Source of the DNA: Hysterangium stoloniferum
Taxonomy: Eukaryota; Basidiomycota; Agaricomycetes; Hysterangiales; Hysterangiaceae
Direction of reading: 5' to 3'
Length of the DNA stretch: 64,000 nt
NCBI GenBank assembly: GCA_015178975.1
Contig: WHVD01000079.1
Span: forward strand, 186,001-250,000
Shown: positions 11,477 to 51,826 of the stretch, piece by piece
Layout: each line of letters begins with the position of its first letter
Position numbering within the stretch: position 1 is the first letter of the stretch
Made by a program: the position numbers and the translations under genes
Notes under the pieces: generated by a model
Seen by the model: only the letters and a program-made list of their open reading frames with translations
Database searches by the model: none
Told to the model about the DNA's origin: nothing

Positions 11477-11479
11477 TTG

Positions 11480-12794: not shown

Positions 12795-12796
12795 CT

Positions 12797-15932: not shown

Positions 15933-16757
15933 ATGTCAGAAAATGAGACACCAAAGTTTGGACGACTGAATGATTCAAATTATGCAGAGTGGGCTCTTCG
16001 AATGGAGGCGGTCCTAACCAGGAGAGGGTTATGGGGCGTTGTTCATGTTGGTGTACCAAATGCAGATTCGAAGGAAGAAAATGAAGTCAATGCAGAGCTA
16101 CAAAAAATGTTGAAAGCGCGGAATGCCTCGAAGATGGCGGAAGCACGAGCCAAGATGATCTTGCGAGTTGAGGATAGCCAGTTATCACATATGCGTCTAC
16201 AGGACCCTAGGGAGATTTGGCTCACCTTGCAGAATGTCCATAGAGCAGCAGGATTCGCCACGAGCCTGGCTTTAAGACGACAGTTTTTGACGATGAAGAA
16301 GCAGGCATCTCAGTCAATGCAAGCATGGATTGGTACCATAAAGGCAGTGGCCTTTCGAATGGAGGAAGCTGGAATTGATGTCAGCAATCAAGACCAAATT
16401 TTAGCACTCACAATGGGTCTCCCAGTCACCTACGATGCGGTTATCATCAATTTTGATGCAACACCTACAGACCTGTTGACATTAGATCATGTTATTGGTC
16501 GCTTGTTAAATGAAGAGACCCGCCAGCAATCGAGAACAGTCAGGACCAAGAAAGAGGAGTTGCAGGATGATCAGGCCTTGGTTGCCAGTTTGGGTGGTCA
16601 ACGTCAAGATTCAATTTGCTACTTTTGCAGTAAAAAAGGCCATATCAAGATAGATTGCAAGGAGCAAATTGAGTGGGAAAAACACAAACGAGAGAAGACC
16701 GAAGTCGCAGGTGTTGCTGAATCTATCAAAATTTCGGAAGAAGAAGAATGTTTCTGA
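15933..16757 (+). CDS. gag: Copia-type Gag (UBN2 domain and zinc knuckle)
   Basis: I choose the ATG at 15933 (MSENETPKFGRLNDSNY...), giving 274 residues without a stop; an in-frame TTG at 15891 is not a likely start. The N-terminal KFGRLNDSNYAEWALRMEA is the usual copia Gag opening. Residues ~50-190 form the helical UBN2 region (DPREIWLTLQNVHRA, RRQFLTMKKQASQSMQAW). A CCHC knuckle C-x2-C-x4-H-x4-C (CYFCSKKGHIKIDC) lies near residue 230, followed by a Lys/Glu-rich end. Gag would form the virus-like particle and bind the element's RNA. It is the only clearly intact retroelement ORF in the window. Confidence 0.85.
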   Translation: MSENETPKFGRLNDSNYAEWALRMEAVLTRRGLWGVVHVGVPNADSKEENEVNAELQKMLKARNASKMAEARAKMILRVEDSQLSHMRLQDPREIWLTLQNVHRAAGFATSLALRRQFLTMKKQASQSMQAWIGTIKAVAFRMEEAGIDVSNQDQILALTMGLPVTYDAVIINFDATPTDLLTLDHVIGRLLNEETRQQSRTVRTKKEELQDDQALVASLGGQRQDSICYFCSKKGHIKIDCKEQIEWEKHKREKTEVAGVAESIKISEEEECF

Positions 16758-16802
16758 TTATTCAGCTTCTGGGGGTGCATGGTGTATGAGCTCGTGGGGG
16801 TG

Positions 16803-17008
16803 TGTTGGATTTCGAGCATCATACAAGCTCATATTCTTTTGTTCCTTTTCCCCATTGTCCTCTTGTCTCACATCCTTGTTGTTTTCCTCATTAGGATTCC
16901 ATTGTTCCTGTTGTATATGTATGTAGCTATGTGTGAATAGAGCTCCCCGCGCGTTTGTGAGGGTCCCTGCTATACTCGGGTGAGGTCGAAGTCCATCTCA
17001 TCTCAACA
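16803..17008 (+). repeat. 3' LTR of gag-only element
   Basis: 206 bp, nearly identical to 15613-15818 (for example GAGCATC against GAGTATC at the start, GCGCG against GCGTG internally). Confidence 0.85.
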
Positions 17009-17374
17009 CTATGTACAATCATTGATGATGAGCCACAATTAGATCATGAAGGGAATTGAGATTATGTTAAAAATGAGCAACACTCCTCAGAGTTGGGAGT
17101 CAAAGGAGGTTGCATGCTTCTGGGAGTGTCAGAAACTTCTGAATAATGGAAAGGTTATTTATATAGAAGGACGGGCTGTCCTCGCACTATAGTGAATTGC
17201 AAGCTTTTGTAGCCTGTGAAGTGTAGCACTGTAGAGAGTTCAATCAGAAAGAGACTAATATGGCAATAGTTTCAAGTCACGTCACAAGCACAAATTCTTA
17301 TATATACTTTGGCACTCAAGACGACTTCTACACAGCCAAATCAGTTTCATCAAACAGATGACCAAAACTCCATT
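17009..17374. promoter_or_regulatory. Upstream region of 17375 frame
   Basis: It contains TTATATATAC at about 17299-17308, some 65 bases before the ATG at 17375, a plausible TATA box. Nothing else is recognised. Confidence 0.3.
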
Positions 17375-17836
17375 ATGTTCAACACTGCATCGTCCTCCAA
17401 AGTAACCCTCAGTTCCTACTCGAAACCGACTCTTCACTCCCAAATAGAACTCCAGCCAATAACATCTCGCTTCTCCTCATCCTCAGACATCATTTTTAAG
17501 CCCCTACCAGCCCACTCATGCTCCTCCAAGAAATACCATCGTTTCCTCCATCGACAAGGTATTCGACTCCCATATGCTCCAGATGATCCTGTCTTCATTC
17601 GTATAGAGCACTATGATGGCTCCTCCGAAATCCTCCACTATCGATTCGATCGAGTGTTCCAGCAGGACTGTTCCCCACCGTCATCGGGAATCTATTACAT
17701 GGCAACGTTCACTCCAGTAGGAGATCACAGAGGACCCAAGTTATTTAGGACCCCGGTTCCAGAGGGAAGTCAAGTAGAGCCTCGTCGATTCGTGTTCCTT
17801 GCGTGGTTGTGGAGCCTACTCACCACCTGGTTCTAA
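17375..17836 (+). CDS. Hypothetical protein, 153 residues
   Basis: A single-exon frame from the ATG at 17375; an in-frame TTG at 17309 extends it but is unlikely. The N-terminal half is Ser/Thr-rich, the middle is Arg/His/Tyr-rich (KYHRFLHRQGIRLPYAPDD, FIRIEHYDGSSEILHYRF), and the extreme C-terminus is hydrophobic (FVFLAWLWSLLTTWF), a possible tail anchor. It does not match any repeat in the window. Family unknown; it could also be a chance frame, but length, a TATA-like box and non-biased composition favour a gene. Confidence 0.45.
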   Translation: MFNTASSSKVTLSSYSKPTLHSQIELQPITSRFSSSSDIIFKPLPAHSCSSKKYHRFLHRQGIRLPYAPDDPVFIRIEHYDGSSEILHYRFDRVFQQDCSPPSSGIYYMATFTPVGDHRGPKLFRTPVPEGSQVEPRRFVFLAWLWSLLTTWF

Positions 17837-18845
17837 AATGGTGATTGATTATGTCCCCTCCTTATACTGCAAAACTAGGAACACAATACGTCCAATCTCG
17901 GTTCATTGATTGGTAATATTGTCAAGATTTCAAAATCAAGCATAGCATTTGAGGGTGATGCATTATCATGGGATTCTTGTGTTTCTGACTCATGTCATCG
18001 ATGTTTCATCAGCCATCACTTCTATTACTCCATCATCCCTATTGTCTGACTCACTTCCCCTATTGTTCTATTGTGTTTCCCCATTTATCTGTATCACATG
18101 TCTGATCTCATCTTTTGTTTGTCATTCTCTTATTGTTCAGCACAGCCTCCCCCTATTTTTGTTCACAGCTTTACTAACACTCCTATTGTGATGACTCAGA
18201 GATGACTCACACCATATCGCATCGTTATTGTGTCGTTGTTTGTAGATGTTTGTTTTGACCTGTGCTTCCTCATGTATATAAGGGCCTCTCTTTTGCCCAC
18301 TATTGAAAAAGCAATTTCGTTGTATCTCATTTCAAAGCTCATTCTTAAGCACAATCTCTTAAGTCTTACTCTCAGTCTCACTCCTACGGCCAGTAAGGGA
18401 TACTATAGTGTCTCTTATTGTTGAATTTCTACGTTCTACGACATTGGGATTACATCAGTCTTTTGTATTCATCTTCGATTACGTCATCCAAGGTCCGATC
18501 TCTAGCCTCTCGCTCCGAGTGTGTTTGGTTATAGACTGGTTTCACGAACAACTGTGTTAGTGACCGTCATAAAGACTTGACCATTGCGTGCAGGTTATTA
18601 GGTCTTTTCCTAGTAATGAACTTACAGCGCCTATAAACATCTAGAAGTCACAAGTTATGAATGATTAAACTACTGTAGATATTCTTCAGGAAGCTGAATA
18701 TCACAAGTGGCATCACACCAATCAGCAAACAAGGGTTCCTTTCCTAATCATTATACCTATTGCTTATAGTGACAGAATTGTTCTATTAGAGTTAAAATAA
18801 TGAAGTCCTTAGAATTCTTTTTGCAAGACGATACATTGCTACATA
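17837..18845. other. Region with LTR-like promoter sequence, no gene
   Basis: A segment around 18186-18445 has a TGTATATAAGGGCC TATA-type element (about 18273) and pyrimidine-rich flanks, resembling the promoter half of an LTR, but I cannot find a second copy or matching ends. No convincing coding sequence is present. Confidence 0.3.
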
Positions 18846-19194
18846 CAGTGGGGGACAAAACCATTCCAATGATTTTTTATATGTCAAAGAATGTTGAATA
18901 ACTCAATGGGTACTTGACCAATTGACCTGAAATTTTTAATTTAGGTAGTCATATATGTTGGATATATACCCTAAGAATTCTATTACATAAGCATTATTTG
19001 TCATTAAACTATAAATCAAATACTAATGGAATCTCATTGGAACAGTTTTGTCCCTGTCACATGATTAGCCCATAACCTTATTGATTATCCACAAATACAT
19101 GCAAATAAAATCATGTGACCTGTTCAAATTGTATATATATACAACTGTTCACTTCTCCAAGTGATTGCATCCCAACAACCCATCAGTTTACATC

Positions 19195-19794
19195 ATGAGA
19201 GCTCTCACTCCTGCTCAACTTGATCATGTTCTTACTCTACTTGACAAGGGCAAGTCTGCACATGAAGTAGCTGCTACCACTGGTCATTCTGTCTCTACTA
19301 TATCCAGAATTTGCTCTAAACATTCTTCCTCCCTCTCCAAAGCAGCTGGAGGTCATCCATGCAAACCTTCCCCCTCTGATACCCATTACATCATCCAACA
19401 AATCACTTCCAAGAAGATTGACCATGCCACTCAGGCCTCTAAAGTCCTACAAGATATGAATGGGGAGTCTATCTCTGCAAGAACAATTCATATGGAACTC
19501 AAGAAAGCTGGAATGAGGGCTGTGGTGAAGAGGAAAGGCCTAAACTCACAAAAAGGCATAGAAGGGAGAGGCTGGACCTTGCATTGGCACACAAGAACTG
19601 GTCTCTGGAGGACTGGAAGAGGGTTGTTTGGTCAGATGAGACTAAAATCAATCATTTGGGGTCAGATGGGAGGAAGTGGGTGTGTGGAAAAAAGCAGGAG
19701 AGGGACTCAGTGATAGGCTGGTTGAGGGCACAGTCAAGTTTGGAGGGGGGAATCTGATGTTGTGGGGTTGTATGTTCTGGGAAGGACCAAGATA
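19195..19794 (+). pseudogene. Tc1-like transposase, N-terminal part
   Basis: From the ATG at 19195: MRALTPAQLDHVLTLLDKGK opens a helix-turn-helix (Paired-like) DNA-binding region, with a second HTH near residues 65-110. A frame shift near 19545 is needed to reach the catalytic core with the first acidic residue in SDETKI (about 19640) and LWGCM (about 19765). The reading frame breaks at 19794, where another transposon entered at TA, and resumes at 25256. Confidence 0.8.
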
Positions 19795-19893
19795 CAGTGA
19801 CCCAAAAAAGCATCCAGATGTTTGGTGAAATTGGAAAGATGGGTTTGCAGCTCCAGAAATAAAATAGATAAAGTTCTGAATAAATCAGAGGTA

Positions 19894-21292
19894 AGAGGTA
19901 TACATCTGACCTACATGATGACATAAGCATGACATCATAGCTTTCCTTATCAGGGAAGTAGGAAATGAACAATGGACATGGTGCATCCAGACATTTTTTT
20001 TGCTCTGTCAACTGATACATGAAACTCAACTAAGGTTTATATAACTGTGGGAATTTCTGGTTAGGTTCAACAATGTCATGTGACCACATGTTTAAATAAC
20101 ACATTTACATGAACCTTTGCCTCAATTCACCCCCCCACCACATGATGAAGAAGCATTCTACTGAAACAAGGCTCTCTGTCATTTCTCTTCTCCAGGAGGG
20201 TCACTCCTGCAGAACAATTGCTTCTAAACTTCATATTGGGCACTCTACAGTATCAGAAATTTGCTCCCAACTCCCTGGTCCACTTCCAACACCTTCCAGA
20301 GGTTGTCCTCCCAAACTCTCCCCCAGGGATCATCACCACCTGGCTTGTTCTATCACCTCTGGACAGGTTGATAATGCCTCCCAAGCCAAGTCCCACCTCT
20401 CCCTCAATGTCTGCACACAGACAATTAGAAATGCATTGAAGAAAGAGAATTTGAAGGCTGTGGTAAAGGCCAAAAGACCTCTTCTTGCCTGTCGACACAT
20501 CAAGGCTCGATATGAGTTTGCTATCAAGTACCAGCATTGGACTGAGGAGGACTGGTTTAGGGTTATCTTCTCAGATGTGACCAAAATCAATCGTTTGGGC
20601 TCTGATGGGAGGTTGTGGGTATGGAAAAGACCAGGTTCTGCACTCACTCAGCAGCATACAATCAATGGAACTATCAAATTTGGAGGGGGGAGTCTAATGA
20701 TTTGGGGATGTATGACAGCACATGGTGTGGGGTACATGTGCAAGATAGATGGGAGGATGGATGGGGAGATGTACAAGGACATATTGGAGGACTATATCTT
20801 CAAAACAGTGGAGTAATATGGGATGGACAGGGAAAGGTTTGTCTTCCAGCAGGACAATGACCCTAAACACACTTGCAAGTTGGCCAAGGATTGGTTCAAG
20901 GACCATCAGATGGAGGTTTTAGACTGGCCTGCACAGTCTCCAGACCTGAATCCAATAGAACACTTATGGTGGGAGTTGAAGAGAAGGCTTGGAACATACC
21001 TTGAGGCACCCAAGAGCATATGGAGCTCTGGGAGAGAGTGGAGGTGGAATGGGAGGGTATTCCAAGGGAGAAATGCCTTGAATTGATCAAGAGCATGCCT
21101 AGAAGGGTTGCTGCAGTACTAAAGGCCAAGGGGGGGTACACTAAATACTGAAACTGGTAAAAACTAGTAATTAATTACAAGAGCAAAAAAAGTGTCCAGA
21201 TGCACCATGTCCATTATTAATTTCCTACTTTCCTGATAAGGAAAGCTATGATGTCATGCTTATGTCATCATGTAGGTCAGATGTATACCTCT
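19894..21292 (+). mobile_element. Tc1-like transposon 3
   Basis: Ends AGAGGTATACATCTGACC and its inverse, with TA at 19892-19893 and 21293-21294. It is 1399 bp with inverted repeats of about 100 bp (19894-20000 with 21185-21292). Removing it restores the inverted repeat of transposon 2 (CAGAGG TA AGGTAGG), proving the order of events. Confidence 0.88.
20142..21151 (+). pseudogene. Tc1-like transposase of transposon 3
   Basis: MMKKHSTETRLSVISLLQEG opens the N-terminal HTH. The catalytic core shows DVTK with the first D (about 20575), QQDNDPKH with the second (about 20855) and [10 protein letters not shown] with the glutamate (about 20945), i.e. DD34E-type spacing. An in-frame TAA at 20814-20816 and a frame shift near 21022 break it; the usual MPRR...KGGYTKY end is readable in a shifted frame to 21151. 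Recently dead. Confidence 0.85.
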
Positions 21293-21416: not shown

Positions 21417-24400
21417 CTATAATGGTACAGGTATATTAATTTGAGCTTGCTGTACTTGTGCAAGCATGATTGGAGGTAATGTACGATGGCCATGGTATCT
21501 TTTGTTGACCCATGCAGTCTCCACTCCTGACAGTCCGAGATCATAACCTGATATGAACCGGGCAGACATATTTGCATATCTAGCATGGGAAAACAATGAG
21601 ATCAGATAGTGGGCAGAAGCATAAGAGAAATACCTTCTGATTTGAAGCAAAGGGATATCATCCAAGCATGTAAGCATATTCTTTTCCATCTCAACAATGT
21701 TATTGGTTTTGGGGGTGTTTCGGTAATGGAACTTTGCTGCACCCCAATACTGCTCAATAAAATTAAGCTCGCAGTGATATTTTGGGTAGAAGTCACAGAT
21801 GTGACCCCGCAATGTGATGAACTCTTCAAGTTGAGATTTTTGTGCCACAAAGTCTGGTTGGGTAAAAAGAAGGCGACGGCAGCAACAGTCAGTTTTTCCT
21901 TGTACACATTTAAAACCTTCACATTGTGCAAGTAAGCCACTTTCCCTCCATAGGCCTTGTTCCCGGATGATTTGTTCCATCCCTTTAAACCATCTAGGCA
22001 TTGTAGGATGGTCCTCTTCGAAATAAAAGGACTGGGTGTCTCCATTTGATAACACAGTATTTCACATGCGAGAGCCTCCTTTGCGATGAACTGTTAAGTG
22101 CCGTGTCGGGAACTTATTCTGGAACTATCGGGAAGTCACCAGGAAGTCGGAAACTCGTGGATAGGGTCAGGACGTCGGCTTCAGCTTATGTGCTGCGCCT
22201 CTACGCAAACGCTCAATGTCCTTAATTTCGGAAGTGAACTAACGACGGAAGATATGGATATTCAGAGTTCCGAAGAGTTCCGAATATCGAGCGTACAGAA
22301 AGACGGGAGGAGGAATAAGAAACTAAGTCGATATCAGATCTAAAGTAAAGTACAAATTCGTGGAAACTAATATAAGTCTACTCGTTATTGTACTACAAAC
22401 TGAGACCATAATAAGATGGAAACGGAAGTATTCTTAAAACGGAAATACAATAAGACATATTAGGAAGACAATATTCCGAGACGGGAATACAACAACAAAC
22501 GAGTGAATACTTGTCAACGAACAAATTACCAAATGCAGAACAAACGAAGAATGCGGATGATACGGTAACTATGATGTTCCGTAGTTGGATATTGGATATC
22601 GAAAGTGGGAGATCGGAAGTCGGATATTGAAACATCCGGGAACGGGTCGTAACATGAACCCAGGTTGCAGATGGATACTTTGGCATCTTTCTTGCAGAAA
22701 GTGCATCATCTGCACGCTTCTGATGGCTCAGTGCATTATCAAAAATGAACAGACCTGTTGCAAACCCATTTGTCCATCCTTCAAAAATATCAATGGCTGT
22801 GTCAACTTGTGTGATCAAGTCATCAGATGAGAAGTAGCCATCACGATTTTTTCCTGCTTTGAAGACAATGCGTGCTGACCTGCATTTCATAGATTAAATA
22901 GTAATTCTAAATTTAGAGTGCAAGATTAACTCACTCCATGCCATCCTCACTTTGCAATCTTCCCCATTCAATGGTCAAAAAATCTGAGACCATGAGAGAA
23001 ACACCTTCCCCCTTCTTTAATAGGACTGCTTTATCTGATTGATGGGCCCACATGATTTTCTGACGGTCAGTCTCATAAAATGTTGATTCATCATGGGTGA
23101 TAAGAATGAGCTGGAAACGTTGGCCAGGTGGGACAGGGAATCCAGTGAGTTCACCTTCGCGGTTTCCATCATTATCATATGAATACATCCGCTTGTCATA
23201 GACTTTCCACCGTTCAATAAATTCCATCCGGTATTTGACAACATCTTCCCTCTCATGGCCATCAACATACATACCATTCCTTTTCCTCCCATATCGCCAT
23301 CCCATCCTGTGGAGCCACCATTGTGTGGTACGTATTGATATCTTCTTTTTCTTGGAACCAATCTCCTCAAGCCTTTCTTGCATTTCTGGTGTCTGCATGA
23401 AGTCAACAATATCCTGAGCTTGGATATAGTTGTTCTTAGCAATTCCAGACAGGTGAATCTGTATTGCTTGTGAAAAGTCCTCATCATCAAGAAGGGTACT
23501 CCGTAGCTTGCCATATCTGTGAAGAGGTAATTTTCCAGAACCCAGGAACTGATGTATCCATGTTTGCAGATTGCGTGCATGGTTAACTCCATGGCCTTGT
23601 GATTTTGATGCAATAAGAGAAGCCTCACGCCAGGTATATGAGAGCTGTGGGTCAAGATAAAGGTTCAATGTCCCAACCATCCCAGTAAGCCGTCCTTGAA
23701 AGAGAACATCAATTTTCTTATCTTTGCTCTTCACAGTCAGTGCTGCACAGGCTTGCCGAAGCTTTGGTAAGTCCTTGTAATTTAATTGATCCAGTATGAT
23801 ATCGGATTCTGTGGATAGAGTGTTGTCCCCAGGTTTTTGGCCTTCTCGTAGTGCCTGAAGGAGCTCTTCAACCTTTTCATGAGCTTTGGAAGGTGGATAT
23901 ATTTCAGTGTTAACCTGTCTTTCAATTTCTTCAATTGACTAATAATATTTGGTCAGTAGAACAATAACCACAGCAGTCCATAAGATCAAGCTCACTGAGT
24001 CGCTTTTTCCAGCAGATATGTTCTCTTGATCTTTGTCAAGGGTGGCCATTTCCACATCTGACTCAGAATTCTGCCCCCTAGCAACCTCAGTAACCTCACT
24101 CTCTGCAGCATTGGCTTTTGCAAACCATGTCCTAATGGAAAGGTAACCTTGCTTCTCTAGGTCCTTTCCAATCTGTTTATGCCTTCGTTTTGTTCGTGCA
24201 GAGTTTTTGAGATATTTCTTTGGTCACCTGTTTTCCTTTAACCTCTCATCTTCAGCCTCAACTGCTATCCTCTGTGCCTCAGCAAGTATCCTTGAGAACT
24301 GTTCCAGGTCAGAGAGTTCTTGAATCTCTGGGTAATTATCTCTAGGATTTTCATCATTTTCATCATCCGAGTCCAAATCATGAGCAAGATCTAGTAGAGG

Positions 24401-25255: not shown

Positions 25256-25681
25256 TGCCACCAAGATTGATGGGAGGATGTATGCTGAACTTTATATTAG
25301 CATTTTGGAGGATGAACTTCAAGAATCTCTCAAGCATTATAAGAAGAAGACTGGGGATATTGTCTTTCAGCAAGACAATGATCCCAAACACAAGAGCAAG
25401 AAGGCCACCAATTGGCTTAATGGCAGTGATTTTGATGTCATAATATGGCCCCCTCAATCTGCTGATCTTAATCCAATTGAACACCTTTGGCATTACCTCA
25501 AGAAGAGGCTACTAGAGTATGAAGTGGAGCCTAGGAGTATTCAGGAACTATGGGAAAGGGTCCAGACAGAATGGGACAGGATTCCTGCTTCTATTTGTCA
25601 GAATTTAATAGAGAGTATGCCTAGAAGGATTGCAGCTATTTTGGATGCCAAGGGGGGTTACACCAAGTACTATATTATATG
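25256..25681 (+). pseudogene. Tc1-like transposase 1, C-terminal part
   Basis: Resumes the frame broken at 19794 with KIDGRMYAELYISILEDELQ, then FQQDNDPKH (second D, about 25375), [17 protein letters not shown] (E, about 25480) and the MPRRIAAILDAKGGYTKY end. This half is open. With 19195-19794 it gives a Tc1 transposase of usual length (~340 residues) apart from the upstream frame shift. Confidence 0.85.
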
Positions 25682-25910
25682 ATTTGTATTGGATTATATA
25701 CCAGGGACCTGGTCCAATGAGATTGCATTAGTATTTGATTTATAGTTTGATGACAAATAATGCTTATGTCATATAATTGTTAGGGTATATAGCCAACATA
25801 TATGACTACCTAAATTAAAAATTTCAGGTCAATTGGTCAAGTACCCATTGAGTTATTCAACATTCTTTGACATATAAAAAATCATTGGAATGGTTTTGTC
25901 CCCCACTGTA

Positions 25911-26225
25911 TGTCTTTGTTGCCACCTTACCAGCCTGAATCACTTGTGGTCCCAGTACCAAAGCTGGAACCAGTATAAACTTCCATGTCAATCCACAGGA
26001 CCAAATACAAACATACATCAGATCTATTTTATGTTTGTCATGGTCAAGACAAGCTGATACCTGAGATTAGACCATGACAAACTATGTAGTGCAATGTACA
26101 TTTGTGTTCAGTCCTGTTAGTGCTAGTATTGCAGCTAGACTGCACTTCATTGGAAGGAGATCTGGAGTAGACCATTGTGTAGGAAGTAGAGGTGAAGTTA
26201 GAAATAAGCTTTCCTACCGATATGG
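25911..26225. other. Spacer between transposon 1 and Ty3 element A
   Basis: 315 bases with no open frame and no match to other parts of the window. I see nothing in it. Confidence 0.4.
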
Positions 26226-26230
26226 CATGA

Positions 26231-26972
26231 TGTTATGACCGTGTCGCAACCCGACAGTCCCTGAGGATATCGCCACCTATTGATGTTTCAAGTTATTGCT
26301 CAAGTCATCGCATCAGAAACTGTCGGTCTCCGACACTGATGTATGCTTTTGTGGCGATCAAACTCCGTTTACATCCCTGTCAAAATATACTCGTACTATC
26401 TGGTTATACTCTGATACATCCCCCTTTTATTATGATGATCCGTTCTACTCTATATTTCACATATGCCTATATATACTTGTAACACTCGGACTATTTCCTT
26501 TTCTCATAATCCTGCTCTCAGTTATTTCATGGCCTCCAAACTAATTGTAACCTTCCCATTCCTAGTCAAGCTTATTTGTCAATAATGTTTTCCACTCTTC
26601 TCCTAGTTAGTATTTTCTAGATGCCAAATACTTGTATATGAACCCACTGTAGTTGTAGTTACTAGGCAATCAGAATATCGACTCAGAATACCCACATACA
26701 CCTCTAGAAGTCTCATACTAAGTATTCTGCTCTCCACCTTCATGTGCGCTTGCCCACTCTTGGTCCCCGACCCCTTGGCCCAATGCTCAACTTATCCTCC
26801 AGTCCCAATCGGTAACTCACTGAGAGGTACTCGTTAGGACTAGTCTTCGCCCGTCTGAAATTTAAGGACACCCAATGGATATTTGTGAGGGCACAGCATA
26901 TAAGCTGAAGCCAAATCCTTCCGATCGGTCCCTGTTAGCCTACCGACATTAGTCAGTTTTCAGTTCTTAACA
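26231..26972 (+). repeat. 5' LTR of element A, with self-priming signature
   Basis: 742 bp. The word AATCAGAATAT (26668-26678) is the exact 11-nt complement of ATATTCTGATT (26975-26985), which begins 3 nt past the LTR end. TTGTATATGAACC lies about 35 nt upstream of the first word, as a TATA box would if transcription began there. This matches the Tf1-type mechanism, in which the RNA's own 5' end primes reverse transcription. Confidence 0.8.
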
Positions 26973-32236: not shown

Positions 32237-32794
32237 TGTTAAGTGCCGTGTCCGGAACTTATTCCGGAACTATCGGAAAGTCACCAGGAAGTCGGAAACT
32301 CGTGGATAGGGTCAGGACATCGGCTTCAGCTTATGTGCTGCACCTCTACGCAAACGCTCAATGTCCTTAATTTCAGAAGTAAAACTTACAATGGAAGATA
32401 TGGATATTCAGAATTCCGAAGAGTTCTGAATATCGAGCATACAGAAAGACGGGAGGAGGAATAAGAAACTAAGTTGATATCAGATCTAAGGTAAAGTACG
32501 AATTTGCGGAAACTAATATAAGTCTACTCGTTATTGTACTACAAACTAAGACCATAATAAGACAGAAATGAAAGTGTTCTTAAAATGGAAATACAATAAG
32601 ACATATTGGGGAGACAATATTCCGAAACGGGAATACAACAAACAAATGAGTGAATACTTGTCAACGGACAAATTACCAAATGTGGAACAAGGGAAGAATG
32701 TGGATGATACGGTAACTATGATGTTCCATAGTTGGAAGTCGGAAGTCGGAGATCGGAAGTCAGATATTGAAACATCCGGGAACGGGTCGTAACA
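32237..32794 (-). repeat. 3' LTR of element B
   Basis: 558 bp; on minus it begins TGTTACGACCCGTTCCC and ends GGCACTTAACA. Shorter than its partner because it has fewer GTCGGAAGTC units. Confidence 0.9.
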
Positions 32795-33050
32795 GTACCC
32801 CCCTGTTAGGCCGAAATCCCATAGAGGCGATTAGGTACTGAGTGATTGAAGTGACGGCTGATTGTTATGTGTCGTGAAATTTACGCAAATATGGAGGTGA
32901 GAGTTTCGGCTGTTATTCTGAGTATAAAAACCTCCAGATATTCGAATTAATGTTTTTGTTTCTTTATCCACGACTTGTATGTTGATTCGTTGGCTGTTAT
33001 TCATCACTACCCCAGAAGACTCAGATACCGAATTATCTGTACTTCAAAAA

Positions 33051-34108
33051 ATGTCGAAGGTCACAGAACTTCAACAAAAACGCCAAAAAATGGAGGAGTT
33101 GAAATGACAACAGGAGGAGGAGGAAAAAGTGTTGATGCAGGAGTTGAAAGATGCAGAAGAGGCAGAAAAACGGGAATTGGAGCGGGCGAAGGTGGAAAAA
33201 GAAGCATGGATGCGGAAAACGGCAGAGGCGCAGAAAAGGAAAGAAGAGGCGGAAAAATTACAGCGGGAGTCGGAGGTGGCGGAAAGACTGAAGGAGATAA
33301 GGGAAGGAAAAGTAAGTTTGATCCATATTTTCTGTGGTTCCGACCGATAACTTTTGATACAGTGAAAAGCCGTGGAGATGGAGGTGGAGGGAGAGGCTGG
33401 ACCTTCAAGTCCTAAAGTAAGTACATCTACAAAAGGTCAGTATTTGATTAACTTCTGAAACAGAAGCCAAAAGTCAAGGCTCCGGAACGGATGGAAGTCG
33501 TCCATGAGACTCTGTGTTATTGATGTTCCATATGGAATATGACATGTTGGAAACAGAAGGTAAAATGGGGTGGAACTTGTTATCCCTGTGCGGTTCTCAA
33601 ACTTCCATGCACCCTCGCCTCGAAAAGGGTTCCAAAAGGTGAGAAGACTCCGAAAGCTAACGATGCGGGAAGTTCAGGAGTGGCCAAAGCTGCGGAAACT
33701 GAGACGCTGAAAACGGATAGTACGGGCATTGAGCTCCTCAAGGAAACCGTCGACGCATTGGTTTTTATCGGGACGGAAGTCATGAAAATGTGGGACACAA
33801 TGGATCACCATAATGATATCCAGGATAAAGGTTTCTGTTCATTGATCTGGAATTTCCAGAGGCAAAATGATTTCCTGGAGAAGATAATGGTTAGCATTGG
33901 TGTTATCGCAGTATCCGAGAGGTTTTCCGATAAGGCACGGGAAAAGCCTAATGATCCGTTGGCGGAATGTGTTGAAAGAAGGTGGGTGTCAGGAAATGGA
34001 CCGGAAGAATCGGAGAGTGAGGATGAAGAGGTGCAGGATATGGTGGAAAGTGTGGAAATTGCTGAAGAGCCGGAAGGTGGATTTGGGGTATCAGAGACTT
34101 TAAAATAG
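33051..34108 (+). CDS. Antisense gene of element B: coiled coil plus Zn2Cys6-like cluster
   Basis: Lies on the strand opposite to gag-pol, between the pol end and the 3' LTR. Exon 1 (33051-33311) encodes a Glu/Lys-rich coiled coil (MSKVTELQQKRQKMEEL..., ERLKEIREGK). A 51-nt intron (33312-33362), an acidic exon 2 (33363-33416, VEMEVEGEAGPSSPK), a 47-nt intron (33417-33463) and exon 3 (33464-34108) follow. Exon 3 has cysteines spaced C-x2-C-x6-C-x10-C-x2-C-x6-C (33508-33590), the spacing of fungal binuclear zinc clusters, then an acidic C-terminal region with ESESEDEEVQDM. Two or three in-frame TGAs (codon 19, start of exon 2, inside the first Cys pair) look like decayed Arg/Trp codons. The homologue in element A keeps the same exon order and Cys spacing. 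It could be a DNA-binding regulator or an antisense modulator; function unknown. Confidence 0.65.
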
Positions 34109-34198
34109 TCCTAATAATATTTTGACTTGCAAAGAAAAACCTAAAACGAGTGTGATAACGGAAGTGTCGGAAACTGAATAGAAAAAGAACAGAAAGGA

Positions 34199-37100
34199 TT
34201 AGAGTAATGATAAAGGTCTGGGTTTACTTGGATAAGCTGTGTGGAAGTCAGTAACAATTTCCATAGTGTGTCCAAATTCCGTGGCCAATATCCATGAAGT
34301 TTCCTCGTCGGTACCTTCATAACCTGCCCATTTGACTAAATAGAGCAATTTACAAGTACGTCGGCGATTGTTGATTTTAGAATCCAAAATTTCGGAAACT
34401 TCAAATTCAGGTTCTCCATCAATGATGACCGGAGGGGACAGAGGTTGAATACGTTCCGGGATTTTGTTAGGAACACATGGTTCTAACATGGAAACGTGGA
34501 AAACGGGATGAACTGCTTGCATACTATCGGGAAGTCGGAGAGTCTATGAGAGTGAACCGGCTTGTGCTATAATTTCAAAAGGTCCCAAGAATTTCTCAGC
34601 GAGTTTTTTAGAAGGTTGGGTAGTACGGAAAAATTGAGCTTTTACAAAAACCTGATCACCGATTTTAAAGTTAGGAGGCGGGATCCTGTTTTTGTCCGCG
34701 GAATGTTGATAATATTCCTGTGCGGAAGAAATAGCTTTCTGAAGTTCTTGATGTAATTTGTCGAGGTCGGTAATAAATTCTTGAGCACGGACAGAAGCCA
34801 AATCTCGTTCGGAATGTACGGTGAGATTCAGATTATAGCCTTTGTTGGCGAAGAAAGGAGATACACTGGTAGTTGCATTTGGGGAGTTATTGTAGGTGAA
34901 TTCTGCGATCGGGAGAAGGGATTTCCAATTGTCCTGTTGATAATTGCAATAGATGCGGAGATATTGTTCCAATGTTTGATTTACACGTTCCGTTTGTCCA
35001 TCACCTTCCGGGTGATATCCCGAGGTGAAGTGTAGTTTCATGTTGAGGGCTTTTCCGAGGGCCTGGAAGAAGTGGGAGACAAACTTGGAGCCTCGATCGG
35101 AAGTTACGTGAGACGGAACTCTGTGTTTGGAAAATACGTGAATAATGAAAAGTTCTGCTAATTGTAAGGACGTGATTGTATCATGAGTAGGTATGAAAAT
35201 GCCTTGTTTCGAGAATCGATCCACAACAACTAGAATGGATGTAAAGCCTTCGGAAGTCGGGAGTTGTTCGATAAAATCCATGGAAATTGAATTCCAGGGT
35301 TTTTCTGGTATCGGGAGTTGCTTGAGAAGGCCGTACGGCTTATGCCTCTGGGTTTTGGAGCGTAAGCAGGTGGTGCATGACTTACAGAACTGGGTTACGA
35401 AATCTCGGAGGTTGGGCCAAGTGTATTCTCTACGGATTAAACCAAGAGTATTGTTAATGCCGTAATGTCCAGAGATTGGATGATCGTGTTTATACTGAAG
35501 TATGCAGAGTCGGAGATTGTTGGAATCTGGAATGTAGATACATCCATTGAGATGGATAAAACCTTGAGAGTCCTGTGACCATCGGGGTTGGTCCGGATTG
35601 TCAGGAACTTCTAGGTGTGGCTTGAGAGCCGGGTCGGAAGTGAGTGCGGAAAGGATATCTTGATGTAATTGCTCAATGTCCATAATCATGATGCTACGCA
35701 TAATTGGATAGTAGAGGGAAGTTGCTCAGATAGATGCGGAAAGTTGTTGCGTTGTAAAAACCGGTTTTAAGTTATGCGGATTAACAATGGCATAGTTACT
35801 TTCCCCCTCTTTAGGATAGACGTCCCATCATTGAGTCATGGCATCTGGTTTTCCACCAAGACGTCCAGGTCGGAAACGGATAATCATGTTGAAAGCAGAA
35901 AGAAATTCAGACCAGCGGGCTTGCCGGCGGGTTAAAAGTTTAGTGGTAGAAAAATATTCGAGATTTTTGTGATCGGTAACAATGTCAACGGGAGTTGAGG
36001 AACCTTCGAGATAATGGCGCCAATGTTTAAAAGCTTCAAAAATTGCCAAAAGTTCCTTATCATGAACGTCATAGTTGAGTTCGGACACTTTCAGTGTCCA
36101 AGAAAGAAATGCGACCGGATGAATTTCACTGTTGGAATCTTGAATGGAAAGGATCGCGGCAATTGCATAATCGGAAGCATCGGTTTCCACAATAATCGGA
36201 ACATCAGGTTTCCAATGGGAAAGGATCGGGGCAGAAGTGAAAGCATTTTTTAAAGTCTGGAAGGCGGATCGGCATTTGTCATCAAAGACCCATGGTTGAG
36301 TTTTACAGGTAAGACGAGTGAGCGGTACTGTAATATCCGAGTAGTTCCGAATAAAACGACGGTAAAAGTTGGCAAAACCTAAAAATGACTGAATATCCTT
36401 GACTTTCCATGGTTCGGGCCAATCATGGACAACTTGAACCTTAGTTTCATCCATACGGAGACCATCAGGTCCGATAATGAAACCTAAGTATTCAATAGAA
36501 TCCATATCAAAGTAGCATTTTTTACCATTGGCGAAAAGACCGTTTTTACGGAGTCTTCGGAAGACTTCACGGACCTGTTCATCGTGAAGAGCAGGATCCT
36601 CGGAAAAGACCAAAATGTCGTCCAAATAGACTATAACACATACGTCAAGCATGTCGGAAAATATATCATTAACAAAATGTTGAAAAGCGGAAGGGGCGTT
36701 GGTAAGGCCAAATGGCATAACCAACCATTCAACGGATCCATAGCGAGTCCGAAAAGCAGTTTTCCATTCGTCGCCCTCGGCAATTCAGACCAAATGATAG
36801 GCGTGTTTGAGGTCTATTTTGGTGTAAATCTGAGCTTTTCGTGGGGCGTCGAGTAAATCGGTAACGAGTGGAAGTGGGTACTTGTCTTTCCGTGTGATGG
36901 AATTTAATCCTCTGAAATCGACACAGAGTCGAAGAGAACCATCCTTCTTTCGGACGAAAAGGACGGGTGCTCCATACGGAGACTTTGAGGGACGGATAAA
37001 ACCTATCGACAAATGTTCATCCAGGAACTCCCGAATAGACGAAAGTTCTGATTGGGATAATGGGTAAATAGGTCCTAACGGAGGGTTTGAACTGGGCTCA

Positions 37101-37744
37101 ATATCGATTTTTAAGTCGTAGGGCCTATGTGGTGCAAGCCTGTCAGCTTTTTGCTTACTGAAAATGTCCGTGAAATCATGGTATTTGTCAGGAACTCCTT
37201 CCAGGTCAGCTTTTAGCTTGGATAATTCTGGAGTCGCAAAATGTCCAGATGCTTCATCAACTTTTAAGCTGATCGAAAAACATTGTGAACCATCCAGTTT
37301 ACTTGCCCTAACAAATGCCGAAGTGTTGATGAGAGAGATTTTTGGAGGTTCGGAAGTTTCGGTAGAAGCTGGAGGTGCCATTGATGCCAAAAAGGCATTG
37401 GCCGGACAAGACGCTGCAGGAGGAACAGAAGTGTTGGGAATTCGGAAAGTAATACTGCCCAATACCCAGTCAATCAATGGATTATATGAGGTGAGCCAGT
37501 TGTATCCAAGAACTACCAAACAGCTAGAGTCCAACTGTGTTAAGAAAAAAGTAACCGTCTGGGATGTTCCACAAGGGAACTGGATAGACATGTCGCAGGC
37601 TTGAGTAATTGCCATATTGCTAGTGCCGTCAAACAGACGCAAGGAAATTGCGGGAACAGAATGGAGTTTCAGATTATGTTTCGTGGCAAAGGTGGTATCT
37701 ACAAAACAGTGTGTGGAGCCAGAATCTATCAGAGCTCGGAACAC
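34199..37744 (-). pseudogene. pol: Pol of element B: protease, RT, RNase H, integrase, chromodomain
   Basis: Protease DSGSTHCFVD (about 37722); RT with [17 protein letters not shown] (36970), LTNAPSAF and intact YLDDILVF (36640); RNase H ETDASDYAIAAIL (36190) and HDKELLAIFEAF; integrase zinc-finger region, MDFIEQLP, VVDRFSKQ (35220), SDRGSKF and GDGQTERVNQ (35010); C-terminal chromodomain EFEVSEILDSK...LYLVKWAGY (34400-34310). Four stops remain (near 36783, 35828, 35730, 34543). The chromodomain defines it as a chromovirus; such domains steer integration to marked chromatin. It may still lend products by readthrough, but it is probably not autonomous. Confidence 0.9.
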
Positions 37745-37889
37745 TAAATTTCCAAGAAAGTCAGAAACGAGTTTTATGAATAATGAATCGGGATTAGAGA
37801 GAGCGGACGCGTTGAGACGGATAACCTCGGAAACACGGAGAGAGTCAATGCAACCCTCTGTCCGTGCAGATTCCGGAGGGTTGCTTACT

Positions 37890-39114
37890 CTTTTTTCGGC
37901 TCCATGGCGGGTTTTTCCTTGGACGTTGTAGTCATAGTGGAAGTTGCCACACGGGCCTTGGAAGAGTTAGATTTAATGGTACAGTCGGAAACCTTGTGTC
38001 CACCTTTCCCGCAGAAAAGGCAGAGGTCGTTGTCCATACGTCATTGTTTCTCCTTCGGGGTGAGTTTACCGTCGGTACCCAACAAATGGGAAATGTCGGG
38101 TTTGTTGGAAGTTGACTGTTTTTCCTTGTTGGATTTCTTGTCTTTCTTCCGGTTGGAGTTTGATTTGCCAGTATTAGTGCCAGAGTTGCCAGTGTTATTG
38201 CCTGAGTTGTTGCCAGAAGACTTGCTAGTCGACACCTTGTTGTTCTGAGAATGTTCCATTGGGTTTTCTCGAGAAACCTCGGCTTTTCGTTCCCAATAAC
38301 GGGTGTCGGATGTTTGAGCTTTCATCCGCATGAGTTGGAGAGTTTTCGGCTTTCCATCTTTGCAGATTTTGTCTTTAAGGCGTGACGGAAGTCCCATATA
38401 GAAATGGTGTCTGAGGGCAGAATCGTCCCATCCACATCGTGCAGTGAGGGTATTGAACTTGACGAGATAATCGGAAACTCGTTGATTGTCCTTCATCTTG
38501 AGCATCATTAATTCATTTTCCGCTTCGCCGGATTGATCGTAAGGTCCGAAATTGGTTTCCAGTTCTTCCACAAAAGCATCCCAGTCATCGAGCCATACGG
38601 GTGTCTCGTCGGATAATCCAGATAGTCCAGGTTCAAACCAATCTTAAGCGGTATCCTTGAGATAAGAGAGCATGAAATTGACTTTTTGACTGTCAGATTT
38701 AAATGCATGGGGTCAATCACGGAAGCTGAAATGGCATTGGAGAAGGAAATTCTTCAATTTTTTCGGATCCTTGCCGGTAAATGGTTCGGGTTCTTTGACT
38801 CCAGTGCAGGATGATTCTTTACTATCCTCAGCGGATTTCAAATAGTCAGCAAATTTCACAATGGAGTTGATAAACAACATTTCAGTCGGTTCGTCGGAAG
38901 ATTTCTTTTTCGATGTCTCTGGCTGATCTTCTGCTTCGTTGTCAGAAGTATGGGGATCATTGGGATCCTTCGTTACCTCAGTAACCTCCTCGGTAACTTC
39001 TTCGACTGAAGCTGATGTTGTCAGCTGAATTGGGGTTTCGGGTTGAGTGGTGTAAAGTTGCAACGGGGATTGAAGTTGGGATGGTCCTTCGGCAGCTTTG
39101 CATTTAGGACCCAT
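37890..39114 (-). pseudogene. gag: Gag of element B
   Basis: ATG at 39114 (MGPKCKAAEGPSQLQSPLQL). An acidic N-terminal region, EPFTGKDPKKLKNFLLQCHF, a stop at 38713, a short frame with a second stop before DWFEPGLSG, then WDAFVEELETNFGPYD (38580) and an Asn/Ser/Lys-rich tail. After one more stop comes a CCHC knuckle CLFCGKGGHKVSDC (about 38015). Order and motifs match element A. Three stops, otherwise continuous. Confidence 0.85.
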
Positions 39115-39148
39115 GATGAGCGAGTCGCAGAGTTGAGATCTGATATAC

Positions 39149-39748
39149 TGTTAAGTGCCGTGTCGGGAACTTATTCCAGAACTATCGGAAAGTCACTGGG
39201 AAGTTGGAAACTCATGGATAGGGTCAGGACGTCGGCTTCAGCTTATGTGCTGCACCTCTACGCAAATGCTCAATGTCCTTAATTTCAGAAGTAAAACATA
39301 CGATGGAAGATATGGATATTCAGAGTTCCAAAGAGTTCCGAATATCGAGCGTACAGAAAGACGGGAGGAGGAATAAGAAACTAAGTCAATATCAGATCTA
39401 GGGTAAAGTACAAATTCGCGGAAACTAATATAAGTCTACTCATTATTGTACTACAAACTAAGACCATAATAAGACAGAAACGGAAGTGTTCTTAAAACGG
39501 AAATACAATAAGACATATTGGGGAGACAATATTCCGAAACGGGAATACAACAAACAAACGAGTGAATACTTGTCAACAGACAAATTACCAAATGTGGAAC
39601 AAGGGAAGAATGCGGATGATACGGTAACTATGATGTTCTGTAGTCGGAAGTCGGAAGTCGGAGATCGGAAGTCAGAAGTCGGAAGTCAGAGATCGGAAGT
39701 CGGAGATCAGAAGTCAGATATTGAAACATCCGGGAACGGGTCGTAACA
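39149..39748 (-). repeat. 5' LTR of element B, with self-priming signature
   Basis: 600 bp. On minus, AGATCTGATAT (39399-39389) is the exact 11-nt complement of ATATCAGATCT in the primer site (39146-39136), which starts 3 nt past the LTR end. A TTATATTAG box lies about 35-40 nt upstream of the first word. Same geometry as element A with a different sequence. Confidence 0.8.
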
Positions 39749-40119
39749 CTTTTGAAGTTATGGCACAAGCCGGCACACTTAGCTTCCTGACAACATGCAT
39801 GTAGTGCACCCAGTATTTCACGTATCTATGTTAGAACCTTGTGTTGCTAACAATATACCGGATCACATACAACCACCACCTCCACCTGTGATTATTGACA
39901 GAGAACCCAAATTTGAGATATTGGAGATCCTAGATTCTAAAATTGATAATTGCTGACACTCATGCAAGTTACTTTATTTGGTTAAATGGGCTGGCTATGA
40001 AGGTACAGATGAAGAAACCTCATGGATCCTAGCTACAGAGCTCGGCAATGCATTGAAATCATTTTAGGGTTTCATCAAGCTTATCCAAATAAACCTGGTC
40101 CTCTAAATTCTCTATAAGT
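39749..40119 (+). pseudogene. pol: C-terminal end of Pol of element A (chromodomain)
   Basis: Continues the frame cut at 32236: FEVMAQAGTL, HPVFHVSMLEPCV, then the chromodomain FEILEILDSK...LYLVKWAGYEGTDEETS (39910-40025). Contains stops. Homologous to 34199-34540 of element B. Confidence 0.85.
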
Positions 40120-40220
40120 CATCTCATGCAGTACCCGACCTTTTTCTGACTATGCCTTAAGTTTTCACACGTTGTTTGTTTTGTTTTAAAACCATTATAT
40201 TTACTATCTAAAAGTTTCCT

Positions 40221-41202
40221 CTACAACTTCTCCTTCTTCCCCAGCCTCCGAACCTTCTCCCTCACTGATGCCTCCTCACCAACCTTTTCTGATACCCCAA
40301 CGCCAGGCCCAACTCCATTGCAACTCGATACTTCTAAATACTGCTCGAGTTGCTCCCCAAGAGACTTTATGGTGCTGGTTTGTTTCTCCAGCCCCATGCC
40401 CAAAAGTTGCAGTTGTTCAGTCATCAGACCTTGTTTTCACAGAGTTTCAAACTGGAACCGTGTTGTCTCTGAGAAATAGGTACACATGAGGCGATTTTGC
40501 TCCTCTAACACATCGGCCTGCTGTTCCTGGTTGGACCCGTTTCCGTCAGTATCTGGGAATACACACCCGAGCTTTTGGTTGGCACACTCTTGACAGGTGT
40601 GGCCCTGACCACTTGCCTGTGGATGGCAAGTCTGACCCCATTTAGTGCACTGGTTGCACTTGGGGTTATTCTCAGGCCCCACTTTTGGGGCCTGTTTTTG
40701 TTTCTATAATCAAAAAAAATTAGAAAATTAAAATAATAGGAACTCGAACCCACCTTGGGGCTCAATGGCCCCAGTACATCCTCCTCGACCTCCTCATCCT
40801 CCTCATCCTCCCTGTCATCGGACTCCAAAGACATCATTGCCTTGTGCTGAAAAAAAAAAAAAAAAGTCAGCAAGATTCACAAAAGAAAGGGAACCCGACT
40901 TACTTTACCCTTCCACTTCTTCTTCACCTCCTCCTCTCATGCCTGATCAGCCTCCCACTGTTTTTTCTTTGCAAGCACCACATCCCATGCTTGTGCACAG
41001 CCTCTTCCGCTGCCAGTTTCTTCTCCTCCACCTCTATAGCTGCCAGCTCCTCTTTCTCCTTCCGCTCCTCCTCCTCGCACACTTTTCTTTTCTCCTCGAG
41101 AAGGCAACAATGTTCCTGAACACTCAAGGGCCCACTCGGAGCCGACATGGGAGCAACTGTTAACCGAACCGGGAAGGGCTTCGACCCCAAGCCAATGGTC
41201 AT
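40221..41202 (-). pseudogene. Antisense gene of element A: coiled coil plus Zn2Cys6-like cluster
   Basis: Homologue, in position and order, of the antisense gene of element B. From ATG 41202 (or 41148): a Glu/Lys coiled-coil exon (KRKVCEEEERKEKEELAAIE), an intron with GTAAGT donor and long T-tract acceptor (about 40854-40900), an acidic exon (LESDDREDEEDEEVEED) ending LGPLSPK, a ~50-nt intron (40709-40755), then CNQC-TKWGQTC-HPQASGQGHTC-QECANQKLGC. The spacing C-x2-C-x6-C-x10-C-x2-C-x6-C is identical to element B. A Gln/Leu-rich helical end finishes at 40221. One stop before the cluster exon's end and a frame problem at exon 1's end indicate decay. Its 3' end faces the chromodomain end of pol. 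Confidence 0.65.
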
Positions 41203-41376: not shown

Positions 41377-42122
41377 TGTTACGACCGTGTCACAACCCGA
41401 TGGTCCCCAAGGATATCGCTGCCTATTGATGTTTCAAGTTATCGCTCAAGTCATCACATTGGAAACCGTCAGTCTCCCGATGCTGATGTATGCTCTCACG
41501 GCGATCAAACTCCGTTTATGCCCCCATCAAAATATCCTCGTACTATCTGGTTATACTCTGATACATCCCCTTTTATTATGATGATCTGTTCTACTCTTTG
41601 TTTCACATATGCCTATATATACTTGTAACACTCAGACTATTTCCTTTTCTCATAATCCCGCTCTCAGTTATTTCATGGCCTCCAAACTAATTGTAACCTT
41701 CCCATTCCTAGTCAAGCTTACATATTTGTCAATAATGTTTTCCGCTCTTCTCCTAGTTAGTATTTTCTAGATGCCAAATACTTGTATATGAACCCACTGT
41801 AGTTGTAGTTACTAGGCAATCAGAATATCAACTCATAATACCCACATATACCTCTAGAAGTCTCATACTAAGTATTCCACTCTCCACCTTTGCATGCGCT
41901 CACCCACTCTTGGTCCCTGACCCCTTGGCCTGACACTCAACTTATCCTCCAGTCCTGATCGGTAACTCACTGAGAGGTACTCATTAGGACTAGTCTTTGC
42001 CCATCTGAAATTTAAGGACACCCGACAGATATTTGTGAGGGCACAGCATATAAGCTGAAGCCAAGTCCTTCCGATCAGTCCCTATCAGCCTACTGACATT
42101 AGTCAGTTTTCAGTTCTTAACA
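41377..42122 (+). repeat. 3' LTR of element A
   Basis: 746 bp, TGTTACGACCGTGTCAC...GTTCTTAACA, preceded by AATGGGGGGATAC. Contains AGCATATAAGCTGAAGCC near 42045, conserved in all copies of this LTR. Confidence 0.92.
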
Positions 42123-50450: not shown

Positions 50451-51826
50451 TGTTAAGAGCAGAAACTGACAGATGTCGGCTGGCCGACAGGGACCGAACG
50501 GAAGGACTTGGCTTCAGCTTATGTGCTGCGCCCTCGCAAGTTACCGTCAGGTGTCCTTAAATTTCGGGCAGGTGAAAACTAGTCCTGTCAAGTAAACCTC
50601 TCGGTAAACTACCGATTGGAAACTGAAGGATAAGTTGAGGGTTGGGTTGAGGGGTCGGAGACCAAGAGTCGGAGGCTGAGAGAGTCGGAGACTGAGAGAG
50701 TCGGAGACTGAGAGAGTCGGAGACTGAGAGAGTCGGAGACTGAGAGAGTCGGAGACTGAGAGAGTCGGAGACTGAGAGAGTCGGAGACTGAGAGAGTCGG
50801 AGACTGAGAGAGTCGGAGACTGAGAGAGTCGGAGACTGAGAGAGTCGGAGACTGAGAGAGTCGGAGACTGAGAGAGTCGGAGACTGAGAGAGTCGGAGAC
50901 TGAGAGAGTCGGAGACTGAGAGAGTCGGAGACTGAGAGAGTCGGAGACTGAGAGAGTCGGAGACTGAGAGAGTCAGAGACTGAGAGAGTCGGAGACTGAG
51001 AGAGTCGGAGACTGAGACAGTTGGAGACTGAGACAGTTGGAGACTGAGACAGTTGGAGACTGAGACAGTTGGAGACTGAGACAGTTGGAGACTGAGACAG
51101 TTGGAGACTGAGACAGTTGGAGACTGAGACAGCCGGAGACTGAGACAGTTGGAGACTGAGACAGTTGGAGACTGAGACAGTTGGAGACTGAGACAGTTGG
51201 AGACTGAGACAGTTGGAGACTGAGAGTGTCGGGGACTGAAAGTCGGAGATTAGAGGTTGAAGTCGTAAATGTAGGTTGAATCGTAAATCGGATGGAGTCG
51301 GAATGTGGTGGTCGTGAATAGATAATGGAGTCGGAAATTAGAGGGTATCTAAGTCGATCTAAGTCGATATTCTGATTGTCTAATAACTACATTTACAGTG
51401 GGTTTATATATGAGTTATCGGCGTCTAGAAACTACTAACTAAGGGAAGAGCGGAAACACTATTTGACGAATAGACTTGACTAGAAACCGGAAAGTTATGA
51501 TAAGATCAGAAGCCGAGATTTAGCCAAGAGCGGAATTACGAGAAAAGGGAATAGTCCACGGGCTACAGGTATATATGGGCATATGTGAAACATAGAGTAA
51601 AACGGATCATCATAATGAAAGGGGACGTATCAAAGCATAACCAGATGGTACGAGTATATTTTGACAGGGGCGTAAATGAGGTTTGATCACCGTGAAGGTA
51701 TACATCAGTGTCGGTATTCCGAAGGTTGCCGAAATGATGACTTGATCAATAACTTGGAACATCGATAGACTGTAGTATTCTCGGAGACCATCGGGTTGCG
51801 ACATGGGTTATGACACGGTCGTAACA
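50451..51826 (-). mobile_element. Solo LTR, Ty3 family A, swollen by a minisatellite
   Basis: TGTTAAGAGCAGAAACTG...CGGTCGTAACA on plus, with GTTTA duplicated at 50446-50450 and 51827-51831. It is 1376 bp against 729-746 for the other three family A LTRs; the excess is the 16-bp repeat array. Confidence 0.9.
50665..51245. repeat. 16-bp minisatellite, about 36 units
   Basis: Units AGACTGAGAGAGTCGG fill 50665-51015, then switch to AGACTGAGACAGTTGG until about 51225. The two-block structure shows at least two separate expansion phases. Other copies of this LTR have only about one unit at the matching place (for example near 26755, inverse). Confidence 0.95.

Follow-up and report, generated by a model that had tools for sequence, protein, structure and literature searches.

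Antisense genes in two nested chromoviruses

The window analyzed here is a stretch of 64,000 nucleotides from the truffle-like forest fungus Hysterangium stoloniferum (Agaricomycetes, Phallomycetidae; contig WHVD01000079.1, positions 186,001 to 250,000 of the forward strand). The source assembly (GCA_015178975.1) comprises 111 Mb in 554 contigs, and the genome is reported in PMC7550596, of which part of the text was available. Within the window, a Ty3 element on the minus strand (element B) sits inside an older Ty3 element on the plus strand (element A), and both carry a gene between pol and the 3' long terminal repeat (LTR), on the strand opposite to gag-pol. The original prediction, made from the letters alone, had described a multi-exon gene at this place with cysteines spaced C-x2-C-x6-C-x10-C-x2-C-x6-C. 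In both elements we found three exons and two phase-0 introns at matching places, and this spacing can be read in both genes:

32923..32928, plus strand: TATAAA, 128 bp upstream of the B antisense ATG, within the element but not within its LTR
33051..33311, plus strand: B exon 1, coiled-coil-like, Glu/Lys-rich, ending REGK; one in-frame TGA in the window copy
33312..33362, plus strand: B intron 1, phase 0, GTAAGT..CAG; GT..AG in 40 of 40 copies
33363..33416, plus strand: B exon 2, ending GPSSPK; the window copy has TGA as its first codon
33417..33463, plus strand: B intron 2, phase 0; GT..AG in 40 of 40 copies
33464..34108, plus strand: B exon 3, six-cysteine cluster followed by the C-terminal part
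40904..41202, minus strand: A exon 1, frameshifted in the window copy
40847..40903, minus strand: A intron 1, phase 0; GT..AG in 14 of 16 copies
40754..40846, minus strand: A exon 2, acidic, ending SPK
40704..40753, minus strand: A intron 2, phase 0; GT..AG in 16 of 16 copies
40221..40703, minus strand: A exon 3, six-cysteine cluster and C-terminal part

Exon 1 is Glu/Lys-rich and exon 2 ends in SPK in both families, as had been described; the acidic character ascribed to exon 2 was seen in A but was less marked in B. Both window copies are broken, that of B by three in-frame TGA codons, of which one falls between cysteines 1 and 2, and that of A by the exon-1 frameshift together with an exon-3 stop. 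The cysteine frame is nevertheless retained in other family members. Among 40 B copies (window copy included), 39 have the ATG, 13 are fully open when spliced, and 37 match the cysteine spacing, four of these with a stop inside the match. All 16 A copies close to that of the window have the ATG, none is fully open, and the spacing is readable in seven. Four younger A copies were also analyzed, two of which (L062 and L065) have an open frame of 292 codons, while stops occur at codon 73 in L061 and at codon 213 in L059. In the open copies of both families exon 1 terminates in REGK and exon 2 in GPSSPK, and the six cysteines are invariant in all 17 aligned exon-3 rows from A and B, which were selected for their open frame. 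In 38/40 B copies a TATAAA is found 121-129 bp upstream of the antisense ATG, and in 13/16 A copies 56-57 bp upstream; it is also present in three of the four younger A copies, the fourth locus being too short to tell. The start codon context in A is ACCATGA.

A and B are two related families of Ty3 chromoviruses, with the domain order protease, reverse transcriptase, RNase H and integrase, a chromodomain, LTRs and a target-site duplication. Pieces of the B pol matched the families of all four enzymes, and the pol proteins of A and B are 84% alike over 436 amino acids. The chromodomain is intact in the B copy L007 (27.3 bits, over the cut-off of 25.1) and scores 24.5 bits, just below that cut-off, in the A-type copy L065. 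A whole-genome search with exon 3 located at least 150 A-type and at least 150 B-type places (725 and 897 first-look candidates, respectively); since only 150 places were scored per exon 3, the real copy numbers are higher.

In all three other chromodomain elements examined (L057, L058, and L060), no cysteine cluster was found on either strand within 2.3 kb after the chromodomain; a fourth chromodomain stretch, L059, is A-type. Chromoviruses L057 (C441:1413600-1415900) and L058 (C323:346990-349300) have a related open reading frame (ORF) after the chromodomain on the sense strand, containing EYRR.LH..G.R.PYAPDDPV, in the position of an env-like gene.

Purifying selection on the antisense frame

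The original prediction had taken the shared exon order and cysteine spacing as a sign of selection, and the ratio of nonsynonymous to synonymous substitution rates (dN/dS) bears this out, being far below 1 in both families. Pairwise Nei-Gojobori estimates were binned by distance. For the true frame of B (780 pairs), dN/dS was 0.36, 0.25, 0.20, and 0.22 with rising distance, as opposed to 0.73-1.38 in control frames (two forward and two reverse frames that do not share third positions). The reverse frame that does share third positions gave 0.25-0.45, which is the expected result. For A (120 pairs), the true frame gave 0.27, 0.20, and 0.17, with 0.65 in a bin of a single pair, and the control frames gave 0.66-0.99 in bins of at least two pairs. 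Likewise, introns have diverged more than coding sequence (0.166 versus 0.103 in B and 0.243 versus 0.161 in A).

Where the integrase-chromodomain part of pol is well aligned, it is under selection of about the same strength as the antisense gene, as dN/dS for the pol part of the same B copies was 0.24 and 0.19 in the two main bins of close pairs. Distant bins gave 0.47 (2 pairs) and 0.55 (bin above 0.15, 238 of 780 pairs), and we suspect frameshifts or poor alignment behind the latter value. Together, the dN/dS values and the contrast between introns and coding sequence indicate that selection has maintained the gene in its protein-coding capacity. This selection acted in the source lineage, and many inserted copies decay after insertion. 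Because splicing of the sense genomic RNA cannot remove introns that lie antisense to it, the gene can presumably retain them, which would illustrate one route by which a retroelement preserves introns.

A diverged Zn2Cys6-like protein

The two families are strongly diverged in this gene, as the original prediction had noted, with exon 3 only 23-24% alike. The relationship between the A and B proteins is nonetheless significant (BLASTP E 7e-7, with an X at a stop in the A row), and their local score of 196 exceeded the maximum of 163 obtained in 300 shuffles in which the cysteines were held fixed.

Zn2Cys6 domains (PF00172) have the spacing range C-x2-C-x6-C-x5-12-C-x2-C-x6-8-C, and the six-cysteine pattern of the antisense protein falls within it. 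Compared by hhalign with 12 Zn2Cys6 pieces from the same genome, all six cysteines were in register (probability 75.7, E 2.4e-5 in this one comparison), a result that the cysteines alone could give. Zn_clus was also the most frequent Pfam match among the 17 exon-3 sequences, but far under the cut-off, e.g., 8.8 bits in L007 versus a gathering score of 21 bits. The predicted identity as a Zn2Cys6 domain thus agrees in spacing and register and falls short of the Pfam cut-off, and because of this score we call the protein Zn2Cys6-like and not a member of the family. By eye, the product is basic and bears SPKK, and it is probably nuclear.

Searches of 5.8 billion proteins gave 4194 relatives for a pol piece, with Trametes and Scleroderma among the matches listed. 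The exon-3 alignment gave a single significant match at E 1.7e-41 (BU17DRAFT_62310) and another at E 0.96, both from H. stoloniferum. The full-length B protein had no match among 5145 candidates, and a plasmid search returned nothing informative. Elsewhere in the genome there are 42 Zn_clus matches.

CGG words in the DNA of both families

CGG is the usual half-site of Zn2Cys6 proteins. The parts of the elements in which words containing it were counted are as follows:

32237..32794, minus strand: B 3' LTR, with 29 mismatches over 558 aligned positions to the B 5' LTR
34544..39114, minus strand: B gag-pol, in broken pieces, TTCCGA-rich on the sense strand
39149..39748, minus strand: B 5' LTR; the target-site duplication CTTTT flanks element B on both sides
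39642..39715, no strand assigned: AGTCGGA tandem array of about 10.6 units of 7 bp, in the U3 region of the B 5' LTR
41377..42022, plus strand: A 3' LTR, start and minimum extent, pairing with 26224-26872

In an unbiased count over element B, CGGAA was the top 5-mer (71 versus 19.5 expected) and TCGGAA the top 6-mer (37 versus 6.8), and in gag-pol alone these words numbered 39 versus 13.2 and 21 versus 4.5, respectively. Per kb, CGGAA occurs 18 times in the LTRs, 10 in the antisense gene, and 8 in gag-pol, as against 1.2-1.3 in two 20-kb stretches of the window. The excess remained after synonymous-codon shuffles, by which we rejected the words as a by-product of protein sequence. Specifically, TCGGAA was found 17 times versus 5.7 in the B pieces of the window (0/500 shuffles), CGGAA 15 times versus 6.4 in L007 (0/500), and TCGG 30 times versus 18 in the young A copy L061 (1/500, rank 1 of 136 4-mers). 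The diverged B copy L067 has 26 CGGAA versus 5.2 expected, and in the CpG-poor diverged B copy L066 the list is led by TGGAA and CAGAA, the two words that deamination of CGGAA produces. In A, the leading dyads of L061 are CGG-N4-CGA, CGG-N3-CGA, and CGG-N3-CCG, and they are the same in L065 (98% same sequence). TCGG-N2/3-CCGA occurs eight times in 4 kb of L061, four times in L062, and once in 1.5 kb of L059.

Such words are not common to all LTR retrotransposons of this genome. Pol frames of six control elements (four copia elements and two chromoviruses without the gene) all had CGG below synonymous expectation (z -3.0 to -7.0), whereas five A/B sets had z +2.1 to +3.6. Likewise, TCGG ranked 99-132 in the six control elements and 1-5 in the five A/B sets. 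In six long ORFs of the window, taken as a host control, TCGG was low (16 versus 26.8).

Mutation bias does not explain the words in B, since CpG decay across the 40 B copies was 0.36 for CGGAA, for other CGG, and for other contexts alike, and a by-product of context-dependent CpG decay was rejected for this reason. Six young A/B copies had CpG observed/expected ratios of 0.96-1.16, two diverged B copies 0.55-0.59, and old A 0.45, compared with 0.02-0.84 in nine other retroelement pieces and 0.73 in window positions 1-20000. The lowest of these values belongs to L064 (C441:1415900-1419700), a 1252-codon open pol frame with three CpG and a ratio of 0.02, i.e., almost CpG-free.

The words in B are oriented. 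On the sense strand of gag-pol, TTCCGA was counted 18 times versus 2 for TCGGAA, and the two LTRs gave 6:2 and 4:2. The 5-mer TTCCG keeps this orientation within the antisense gene (9:2 and 14:7), although the coding strand is opposite; the orientation of the 6-mer is not kept (0:2 and 0:3). Because the gag-pol orientation persists in an oppositely coded gene, a one-strand codon effect does not account for it, and readings at the level of DNA and of RNA both remain. In the antisense coding sequence of three copies, CGGAA was over-used clearly in two and weakly in one.

Comparison with known systems

Antisense genes of this type are known in plant and fungal LTR elements, and the intron-bearing, zinc-cluster-like version in chromoviruses is an addition to them. 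According to the available parts of PMC7264820 and PMC11963269, plant Ty3 elements of the Tat/Retand type (Grande gene23, RIRE2, and Retand) likewise have antisense ORFs between pol and the 3' LTR, which are kept in most copies, are predicted to be DNA-binding, have their own promoter in Grande, and are described as being of unknown function. On the other hand, the A/B gene has two introns, a six-cysteine cluster, and a fungal chromovirus as host, while Retand is described in these sources as a non-chromovirus and the same partial texts make no mention of introns. The plant Retand-type domain TRP28 (PF04195) had no match at E ≤ 10 in the A/B antisense proteins. An additional antisense gene in a fungal LTR retrotransposon is also indicated for brtn of the Boty-like elements of Botrytis cinerea by the title of Zhao 2011 and the accessible part of PMC8365987; our protein database searches with the full-length B protein and the exon-3 alignment gave no brtn match, brtn being known here by description only.

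VANC of the Arabidopsis VANDAL elements is, like the A/B gene, element-encoded, intron-bearing, and faster evolving than the transposition protein, and VANC21 motifs are dense in the element, in the same orientation, and in tandem repeats, as far as the available text of PMC5735166 goes. This pattern of dense, family-specific words in one orientation and in tandem arrays was found in B and, within A, in one subfamily. VANDALs are DNA transposons, unlike A and B, which are LTR retrotransposons, and the VANC domains DUF1985 and DUF287 had no match in the A/B antisense proteins. The likeness to VANC would lie in the presumed mode of action and not in descent. With the fungal Zn2Cys6 transcription factors (PF00172) the antisense protein shares cysteine spacing within range, six cysteines in register, and CGG as presumed targets; no fungal transcription factor domain was matched at E 10. 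TET/JBP dioxygenases of fungal DNA transposons are likewise element-encoded accessory proteins in Agaricomycetes, with a likely role in methylation escape, but they are enzymes, belong to DNA transposons, and have no sequence-specific words (PMC12730594, from the part of the text available). No fungal antisense zinc-cluster gene or retrotransposon anti-silencing system was recognized in the literature covered, which consisted mostly of titles and the starts of abstracts and excluded subscription papers.

A possible self-recognizing protein

The reading that we favor, with a probability of roughly 0.4, is that the element-encoded protein recognizes CGG words of its own family and keeps that family active in a VANC-like manner. 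In this scheme, each chromovirus would bear its own antisense transcription unit, with TATA, start codon, and two introns, and this unit would encode a probably nuclear protein combining a coiled-coil-like N-terminus with a Zn2Cys6-like cluster that may hold zinc. The protein would bind CGG-containing words accumulated throughout the DNA of its family, the candidate target being TCGGAA in B, where it mostly faces one way and forms an array in the LTR U3 region, and TCGG in A, partly as TCGG-N2/3-CCGA. By coating its own element it may keep the family active, through anti-silencing or through activation of the LTR promoter. The suggestion of the original prediction that the gene could regulate the LTR promoter gains support from these words. 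A fuller version, in which the protein and the words in coding DNA and LTRs co-evolve (TCGGAA in B and TCGG-N2/3-CCGA in the sister family A) as a sequence-specific anti-silencing or self-activation system, i.e., a fungal retroelement counterpart of VANC, appears somewhat unlikely as a whole.

Several observations weigh against self-recognition. On the side of the protein, Zn_clus was matched below threshold in only 10 of the 17 exon-3 sequences at E ≤ 10 (best E 0.65) and not at E 10 in the A-type copy L062, and no relative of solved structure was found (best RPA12, E 2.4). On the side of the words, the six window ORFs are also high for CGGAA (13 versus 8.0, 7/200 shuffles), and TCGGA is missing from the antisense coding sequence of three copies (0 versus 1.9-2.5). 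The 256-bp antisense promoter has no CGGAA, with CGG at expectation, and the B 3' LTR has no significant CGG spacing, other spacings being flagged too. A pol shows no clear excess of CGGAA (z 0.7-1.7), TCGG-N2/3-CCGA is present in 6 of 16 older A copies and absent from 10, and the A result amounts to one sample because L061, L062, and L065 are 98% alike. VANC21 words are mainly non-coding, as described in the accessible text of PMC5735166, whereas those of A and B lie in coding DNA too. Finally, CpG decay at the words equals that elsewhere, so dead copies give no sign that the words are protected, and the strand bias permits a reading in terms of RNA.

Among the alternatives, the gene may be real and selected while the CGG words come from a host zinc-cluster factor, from codon pairs, or from the way composition changed over time in a lineage that was active recently and is weakly methylated. 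Protein and words are linked by correlation across two related families, the genomic Zn_clus matches attest to host factors, and CGG-type CpG contexts are generally raised in B (ACGG 1.45, GCGG 1.42). However, the arrangements in A and B differ, the six control elements, two of them chromoviruses, are depleted, and mutation context is excluded for B, and we consider this explanation unlikely.

The same self-recognizing protein could also act as a repressor, holding copy number down, as the original prediction suggested, by binding the words of the LTR. The LTR does carry an array of CGG words, and at least 150 places in each family would give self-limitation a use, but the CpG-rich young copies suit activity better than repression and the words extend through coding DNA beyond the LTR; we rate repression as improbable. 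A similarly small chance attaches to the words acting in RNA, in which case Gag or the antisense protein would bind TTCCGA of the sense genomic transcript to serve packaging, export, or the control of translation. The strong strand bias in gag-pol, in the LTRs, and, against the coding strand, in the antisense gene speaks for this; the U3 array of the 5' LTR would lie upstream of the expected RNA start, A has palindromic arrangements, and the DNA motifs of VANC21 have one orientation as well (PMC5735166, available text). That the frame is accidental, with function residing in the antisense transcript or nowhere, is very improbable, and for the source lineage it is rejected by dN/dS and the control frames, because although stops interrupt 24 of 40 B copies they do so in the pol part of 27 of 40 as well, dN/dS is 0.2-0.36 with shifted frames near 1, and introns are more diverged than coding sequence.

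These findings add to fungal chromoviruses an antisense gene that bears introns and has been under selection. A self-recognizing protein also offers a concrete test of whether proteins of Ty3 antisense ORFs bind their own element, as the words are named, the sister families are a built-in specificity control, and intact copies exist.

Other features of the window

A further B-family LTR was recognized by its two ends at 22092-22654. An A-like LTR at 50463-51826 contains 37.5 copies of a 16-bp TCGG-bearing unit, GTCGGAGACTGAGAGA, at 50654-51249. By eye, an ORF at 25278-25682 on the plus strand resembles the C-terminal part of a Tc1/mariner-type transposase.

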